Origin: Paralysiella testudinis
GTDB lineage: Bacteria > Pseudomonadota > Gammaproteobacteria > Burkholderiales > Neisseriaceae
Length of the DNA stretch: 64,000 bases
Assembly: GCF_016894345.1 (NCBI RefSeq)
Contig: NZ_CP069798.1
Coordinates: 2,439,385 to 2,503,384 of the forward strand
Reading direction: 5' to 3'
The notes beneath the pieces are model-generated. The model had not been told where the DNA came from, ran no database searches, and saw nothing but the letters and a program-made list of their open reading frames with translations. Each line of letters starts with the position of its first letter. Positions within the stretch are counted from its first letter, which is position 1. Below, piece by piece: positions 32,047 to 50,989 of this stretch. The position numbers were made by a program, and so were the translations under genes.

Positions 32047-32502
32047 TTATTGGCATGAAGTAGGCAAACGTTTCGCCTCAATACCATTGGCACCAGCAGC
32101 CGGCGCACATGTCCATTTTGATATTTGGCCACTCGCGGCTACTAAGTTTGGACTAAGCGTCATGGATTTGCCGCTATTAGCGCCTGAGGTAAATGAAATT
32201 GTAATTACACCGTCATCTGCGCCAACACTTACCGACTTCGCAGCAAAATATTTACCTTCCAGAGCTTTAGCTTGGAGATCGATAACACCACCAACTTTAC
32301 CAACATCTTTTAAACTTCCTTTATCTGCGGCATAGGTACCAATATCGGTTTGCAAACCAGAAGTAGCCTTAAAGCCTTCAGTAGCTTGCGCACGGGCGGT
32401 GTAGTCTTGGTAGGCCGGCAGAGCGATGGCAGCCAAAATACCGATAATCGCGATTACAATCATCAATTCAATCAGGGTAAAACCTTTTTGCAATGCTTTC
32501 AT
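32047..32502 (-). CDS. pilE: Major type IV pilin (PilE/PilA-like)
   Basis: The 151-residue protein has a short leader (MKALQKG) and a cleavage site G|FTLIELMIV, with Glu12 as the conserved Glu5 of the mature pilin. The hydrophobic helix continues to LPAYQDYTARAQ. A C-terminal disulfide loop is bounded by WTC and TSCQ. Short leader, strong upstream signals and first position suggest the major pilin. A GGAGAG site lies nine bases before the ATG. Upstream are a C8 tract and a sigma-54-like promoter. No silent pilS cassettes were seen in the window. Confidence 0.9.
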   Translation of the reverse strand: MKALQKGFTLIELMIVIAIIGILAAIALPAYQDYTARAQATEGFKATSGLQTDIGTYAADKGSLKDVGKVGGVIDLQAKALEGKYFAAKSVSVGADDGVITISFTSGANSGKSMTLSPNLVAASGQISKWTCAPAAGANGIEAKRLPTSCQ

Positions 32503-32528
32503 TTTTTTCTCTCCAAAATAAGGAAGTG

Positions 32529-32536
32529 GGGGGGGG
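32529..32536 (-). repeat. C8 homopolymer in the pilE leader
   Basis: Eight Cs on the coding strand lie 27 bases before the pilE ATG, between the promoter-like element and the ribosome site. Slippage could alter leader length but not the reading frame. Confidence 0.6.
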
Positions 32537-50210: not shown

Positions 50211-50483
50211 GGCGGTTCCTTAAATTCCCTTGCGGTTTTAATGTTTTTATCATGGTGTAAGAACGAGCCTGCTGATGCTTTAGGCTGCCTGAAACATCAT
50301 CAACTTCTGAACAATTATAGCCAATTTGCCGATGTGCTTGGGCGGCAAAACCGAATAAATGCCCTATAAAACCAATTACAATGATGTTTTTATTCTTTCA
50401 GGCAGCCTGTATACGGAAGATGGTGTATTCAAGCTCAATCGGCTTATTCAAGCTTCGTTATTTATTAAATATTTAAATTGATA

Positions 50484-50514
50484 TTGACATTACAAAAAAA
50501 AAAAACAATATACT
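50484..50514 (+). promoter_or_regulatory. Promoter with A12 tract in the spacer (possibly phase-variable)
   Basis: TTGACA (50484-50489) and TATACT (50509-50514) are separated by 19 bases, of which 50494-50505 are twelve As. Loss of one or two As would give the ideal 18 or 17 base spacing. Transcription would start near 50521, about 70 bases before the lipoprotein ATG. Confidence 0.6.
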
Positions 50515-50589
50515 TCTGCTGCATGTACTTTTTCTGTATTAACAAAAGCGCCTGCACTCCCTTAAAACTCACCTGACAAGGACATCATA

Positions 50590-50922
50590 ATGAAAAAAAC
50601 AGCGCTAATTTTGGCCACTTTGTTTTCTCTAACGGCTTGCGGCGGCGGCAAACTGCCCTCCAGTTGCGTTGATGCTTTAAAGGGCTTTGCCGCTTTGGAC
50701 GATGCTCAAAAAAAACAACTCAGTATGGTAACCACAATGCGCTTAAAAGCGGTTCTGCGCCAAGGCAATGGCGATGTCGACAAGGCCATTGACGTATGGA
50801 AAACAACCGTAGAAGCACAATATGAAGCCGTCAGCAAACAAAAAGGCAGCAAAACCGCCGATTTACTTATAAGCCAAAGCGAGCAGCAATGCGAGGAATG
50901 GAAAAAAGAAATCAAAAAATAA
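50590..50922 (+). CDS. Small lipoprotein of unknown function
   Basis: A 110-residue lipoprotein with a signal peptide MKKTALILATLFSLTAC; lipobox LTAC places the lipidated cysteine at 17, followed by GGGK. The mature part is helical and Lys/Gln-rich, with two cysteines (Cys26 and Cys101, in SSCVDAL and QQCEEW) that may form a disulfide. AAGGA precedes the ATG. Its promoter has a poly-A spacer (see 50484-50514), so expression may vary between cells. No family was recognised. Confidence 0.78.
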   Translation: MKKTALILATLFSLTACGGGKLPSSCVDALKGFAALDDAQKKQLSMVTTMRLKAVLRQGNGDVDKAIDVWKTTVEAQYEAVSKQKGSKTADLLISQSEQQCEEWKKEIKK

Positions 50923-50934
50923 TTAAACCCAATC

Positions 50935-50989
50935 AGGCTGCCTGAAAGTGCCTTTTGGCTTCACAGAAGCTTCGCTTTCAGGCAGCCTT
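50935..50989 (+). terminator. Wide inverted DUS pair after the lipoprotein gene
   Basis: AGGCTGCCTGAAAG and CTTTCAGGCAGCCT enclose about 27 bases that include GAAGCTTC. Likely terminator. Confidence 0.5.

Follow-up and report, generated by a model that had tools for sequence, protein, structure and literature searches.

The A12 promoter and its lipoprotein gene

The window (the whole stretch of 64,000 nucleotides of Paralysiella testudinis DNA analysed here) carries at 50590..50922 on the + strand an open reading frame for a predicted lipoprotein of 110 aa (MKKTALILATLFSLTACGGG...). Its lipobox, LTAC, spans residues 14-17, with the Cys codon at 50638-50640, and the Gly at +2 of the predicted lipoprotein fits sorting to the outer membrane. 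The surface exposure assumed in the initial annotation is putative. A ribosome-binding site, AAGGA, can be read on the same strand at 50578..50582, 7 bases 5' of the ATG at 50590. Upstream of it on the + strand lies a strong-looking promoter with a perfect consensus -35 hexamer, TTGACA (50484..50489), followed by TTAC (50490-50493), twelve consecutive As (50494..50505), CAA (50506-50508) and the -10 hexamer TATACT (50509-50514; CAA and hexamer together 50506..50514). The -35 and -10 hexamers are 19 bp apart, and the ATG lies 75 bp further 3'. The initial annotation, which had placed TTGACA and TATACT 19 bases apart with twelve As between them, is exact to the base. A homopolymer of at least 8 in the spacer of a recognisable promoter marks the spacer-homopolymer type of phase-variable promoter (transcriptional simple-sequence contingency loci), and the tract is such a homopolymer. 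A12 is one assembled length and may be off by one base through an error in the consensus or in sequencing. The A12 promoter is absent from a generic promoter scan because the scan accepts spacers of 16-18 only.

Two further features surround the spacer. An A/T-rich block (the TTATTTATTAAATATTTAAATTGATA region, 50464..50483, + strand) precedes the -35 hexamer and may be a UP-like element. The tract itself is flanked by a 6-bp inverted repeat, a putative element whose left arm, ATATTG, occupies 50481..50486 and whose right arm, CAATAT, occupies 50506-50511 (+ strand). A second A run, A8, is found inside the lipoprotein frame (50708..50715, + strand), where a role as another slippage point would be speculative; in a 464-kb sample of the genome, A/T runs of at least 8 have a frequency of about one per 21 kb.

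Two uptake-type sequences in inverted orientation (AGGCTGCCTGAA ... TTCAGGCAGCCT, 50935..50988), likely a terminator, follow the gene; AGGCTGCCTGAA has 50 copies in the window, which, given the known dialects of uptake sequences, indicates Neisseriaceae. Because of this pair on the 3' side and a divergent ETF-QO-like gene on the 5' side, the lipoprotein gene looks monocistronic. Neither it nor its downstream neighbour adjoins the ETF-QO-like gene in any of 29 relatives, within the stretch compared. The 110-aa protein gave nothing over the cut-off against Pfam, NCBIfam and PDB, and no match in plasmid and phage collections. Its structure model (P0001; mean pLDDT 62.7, mostly helical) is too weak for a fold search. 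A single distant homologue is encoded beside a uvrB-like gene in a MAG labelled Eikenella sp. (G012; L004, L071). That copy has no A tract, begins with an ATG in a different frame from the conserved one and carries another residue in place of the lipobox Cys; gene decay or a fault in the assembly is the probable cause.

Rarity of the tract and its placement

Whole-genome pattern searches found three A/T runs of at least 10 in the 2,905,699-base genome (A10, A11 and A12). The promoter tract is the longest of all A/T runs in the genome and the sole run of its length. No promoter pair was noticed around the A11 run. The A10 run sits within an ftsY-like reading frame (signal recognition particle receptor; L005, near 1501-1510, genome 859987), an odd place for a slippage-prone sequence. 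With composition taken from the 464-kb sample (55% GC) and genome-wide counts from the pattern searches, Markov models of order 1-6 expect 7-75 runs of at least 10 and 0.3-10 runs of at least 12 per genome. Long A runs are rarer in this genome than composition predicts. The bare existence of one A12 run is within chance; the remarkable part is that the longest run lies in a promoter spacer.

When flanks of matching composition were simulated, two hexamers with at least 11 of 12 positions matched and a spacer of 15-20 around the tract arose with P = 3.7e-4, or about 0.002 once both orientations and the three long tracts are allowed for. This placement P is somewhat flattering, because long A runs favour intergenic DNA, which is also the home of promoters. 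The pattern TTGACAN{13,21}TATACT has two occurrences in the genome, one of them the A12 promoter.

The same element in other Neisseriaceae

The pattern TTGACAN{0,8}A9N{0,8}TANAMT was searched in 83 Neisseriaceae genomes together with controls, yielding eight matches and no control match. This recurrence across genera, against none in the controls, is a stronger argument against chance than the placement P. Six of the eight matches have the form TTGACA-N4/5-A(n)-CAATATACT, namely the window (A12), a genome of another genus (G007, A14) and four genomes of a genus designated g10 (A11, A11, A10 and A11). The element ATATTGACA-N4/5-A(n)-CAATATACT therefore spans three genera, with tracts from A10 to A14 and CAATATACT identical at all six family loci. 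The remaining two matches, L077 and L078, come from two further family genomes with TTGACA, then a run of 16 or 17 As, and a hexamer resembling TATAAT/TAGAAT. They were set aside as lacking the CAATATACT signature; in L077 the A run follows TTGACA directly, and L078 has A17 and TAGAAT.

A relaxed search adds a degenerate copy in G103 (A8; TTAACA and TATGCT), which brings the range at related loci to A8-A14 and leaves TTGACA the same in 6 of the 7 family loci with the element. This locus (L107) holds an NMB0032-like orthologue with A8 and one change per hexamer, a pattern reminiscent of a lost or locked switch. The spacers at the seven loci measure 16, 18, 19, 19, 19, 19 and 21 bp. Among 300 genomes drawn from the order, a sample that holds few Neisseriaceae, the organism's own genome is the sole match.

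Compared over the promoter stretch, five g10 orthologues differ in length at the A run alone, and one of the five differs in sequence further upstream. One genome per species was compared, so these tract-length differences are between species. A length difference confined to the A run is what slippage predicts.

The window and G007 agree upstream of the promoter and diverge downstream of it. The 20 bases 5' of the -35 hexamer, which form the A/T-rich block, are identical at 18 of 20 positions. Over 32 bases the agreement is 23/32, a level that no other of the roughly 2,370 sample stretches with equal A/T richness reaches. On the 3' side of the -10 hexamer, 5 of 20 bases agree. The driven genes differ as well: the one in g10 encodes a lipoprotein of 175 aa and is divergent from a glmS-like gene, and the one in G007 encodes a protein of 178 aa that has a signal peptide and no lipobox. 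Pairwise BLASTP detected no homology among the downstream proteins of the window, G007 and g10; the 175-aa g10 protein had no significant BLASTP match to the 110-aa lipoprotein, and there was no match in the genome of the window. Because the upstream bases agree and the downstream bases and proteins do not, the common part across genera appears to be the promoter and not the gene.

NMB0032 and other known systems

The g10 gene (L073-L076) fits an orthologue of meningococcal NMB0032, judging by tract flanks, tract position, the lipoprotein product and the glmS neighbour. At the g10 loci G and C border the tract, whose first base lies about 45 bases 5' of the first ATG; both features agree with NMB0032. 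The glmS-like gene there corresponds to glmS, the neighbour of NMB0032. NMB0032 itself encodes a putative lipoprotein, has an intergenic A(11-13) tract and belongs to the core phasome of the meningococcus and N. lactamica (PMC5953494); its place in the core phasome holds for all clonal complexes (PMC7371114). Isolates carry the tract as G(A)11C, G(A)10C or G(A)12C, 47 bp 5' of the start (PMC5686521). Among household isolates, the A11 isolate had lower RNA than the A10 isolates, a difference that qRT-PCR did not confirm because of strongly variable replicates (PMC5686521).

The window promoter resembles the NMB0032-type loci in having ATATTGACA, a short linker, an A tract (A10-A11 at the g10 loci), CAATATACT and a lipoprotein gene downstream. 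The linker is TTAC in the window and AGCTG or ATCTG at the g10 loci, and since it is one base shorter 5' of the tract, A12 here and A11 there both result in a spacer of 19 bp. In contrast, the proteins are non-homologous and the neighbouring gene is ETF-QO-like here and glmS-like there. What the window shares with the NMB0032 type is thus the promoter, ATATTGACA-linker-A(n)-CAATATACT, and not homology downstream.

Unstable homopolymers between -10 and -35 are found in porA, fetA and opc of Neisseria (PMC2791445), the fetA tract being of C (PMC5953494) and the opc tract likewise of C, according to the title of a work cited in PMC2791445. As in those genes, the window has a spacer homopolymer in the promoter of an exported-protein gene, where tract length alters the spacing. 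Unlike them, it has A in place of G or C, and the sequences and proteins are unrelated. The poly-A tract of NMB0032 is a closer precedent than porA and opc, which the initial annotation invoked. The nspA promoter of N. meningitidis has an A5/A6 tract in which an extra A raises expression, not via spacing, and switching was not observed (PMC6389960). Both nspA, a meningococcal outer-membrane protein gene, and the window have an A tract just 5' of the -10 hexamer; however, the nspA tract is short, it comes without a -35 consensus, and spacing was ruled out by its authors. Citti and Wise reportedly described, in 1995, phase variation of the vlp lipoproteins of Mycoplasma hyorhinis via poly-A between -35 and -10. 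In contrast to the present case, that organism and its sequences are unrelated, and vlp is a family of size-variable lipoproteins.

Probable phase variation and alternative explanations

We consider it likely that the A12 tract is slippage-prone and modulates expression in this organism; length variation here is inferred from other loci. In the proposed mechanism, a sigma-70 promoter would drive one small lipoprotein gene, its spacer holding the slippage-prone A tract. The tract would gain or lose As at replication and thereby shift the distance between -35 and -10. At A12 (19 bp, as sequenced) low or intermediate expression would be expected; A11 and A10 (18 and 17 bp) would give stronger expression, and spacers of at least 20 bp weaker expression. 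A cell population would then hold mixed amounts of the lipoprotein. In the sole published comparison at NMB0032, expression was higher with A10 (18 bp) than with A11 (19 bp). By transfer, A12 in the window should match the lower state there and A11 or A10 higher ones, and the spacing argued for initially, with A12 too long and A10 or A11 nearer the optimum, fits. The accompanying claim that the gene is phase-variable by slippage is supported by analogy, from the same element with varied A runs in three genera and from A10-A13 at NMB0032. One insertion sequence has homopolymers of differing length among its genomic copies (C6, C8, C9 and C10 where uninterrupted), and in this respect homopolymers are seen to change length here over time. 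Counting against the phase-variation reading are the NMB0032 RNA difference without qRT-PCR confirmation, the nspA tract without switching, and the mostly weak standing of A/T tracts as survey candidates.

It is less likely that the locus is primarily a regulated promoter, in which ATATTG ... CAATAT and the upstream A/T block form the site of a regulator common to the genera. The tract would then be a bend or a spacer between half-sites, with its length variation secondary or tuning the regulator as at nadA. All three genera have both arms at their loci (the degenerate copy has ATATTA), and the ATA before the -35 and the CAA before the -10, which lie outside the hexamers, are kept before non-homologous genes. 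The near-identity of the upstream block in the window and G007 and the nadA precedent, where spacing and a repressor act together, also speak for a regulator. However, the arms are just 6 bp, half of each being promoter hexamer; common promoter ancestry would keep them too; and the arm spacing varies by up to 6 bp among the loci.

A static weak promoter, with a rigid A-rich spacer of fixed length within the species and neutral drift between species, seems similarly improbable. Meningococcal surveys do indicate slower slippage for long A tracts than for long G/C tracts, but tracts of at least 8 were mostly variable within colonies there, A/T tracts being mostly weak candidates, and the 12 As of the window exceed that length of 8 (PMC5084427). 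The matching NMB0032 tract varies among isolates of one household (PMC5686521), and such runs are otherwise absent from the genome. A chance A run between promoter-like hexamers before a decaying or unexpressed orphan gene is very improbable: the sole homologue looks broken and the gene is present in few genomes, but P is about 4e-4 for the hexamer pair alone, the whole element recurs before exported proteins in three genera, and in the window the frame is intact, with a signal peptide and a ribosome site.

Slippage at the A12 tract, the reading we favour, would probably make this promoter a further example of the known spacer-homopolymer switch. The new angle is modest and is apparently a promoter module common to genera before unrelated genes. 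One may tentatively go further and regard the element, together with its upstream A/T block, as a phase-variation promoter module that is mobile, or has been recruited repeatedly, within Neisseriaceae, kept across genera and placed before unrelated exported proteins and possibly with its own regulator reading the spacing of the ATATTG and CAATAT arms. If the favoured reading is right, phase variation by spacer poly-A would extend beyond Neisseria; we know of no report of it in those genera. NMB0032, a meningococcal core-phasome gene of unknown function, would have its switch, not its protein, in common with other genera, and the element would exemplify a regulatory switch whose conservation does not depend on the gene under its control.

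Other homopolymer loci

A second phase-variation candidate in the window is a C9 run (32536-32528, within 32499-32536, - strand) located 26 bases 5' of the start codon (ATG) of a type IV pilin-like gene, just upstream of the ribosome site. It is among the seven G/C runs of at least 9 in the genome. The insertion sequence with variable homopolymers has about 36 copies across the genome (e.g. L011, L013, L014, L017), in which the C run lies just before the transposase start, and besides the uninterrupted runs there are variants broken by A or T. Transposase expression might depend on this run. Another C9 is found in a spacer of a CRISPR-like array with the repeat GATTCCTGCCGCACAGGCAGCTTAGAAA (L012, near 1501-1509, genome 698912).
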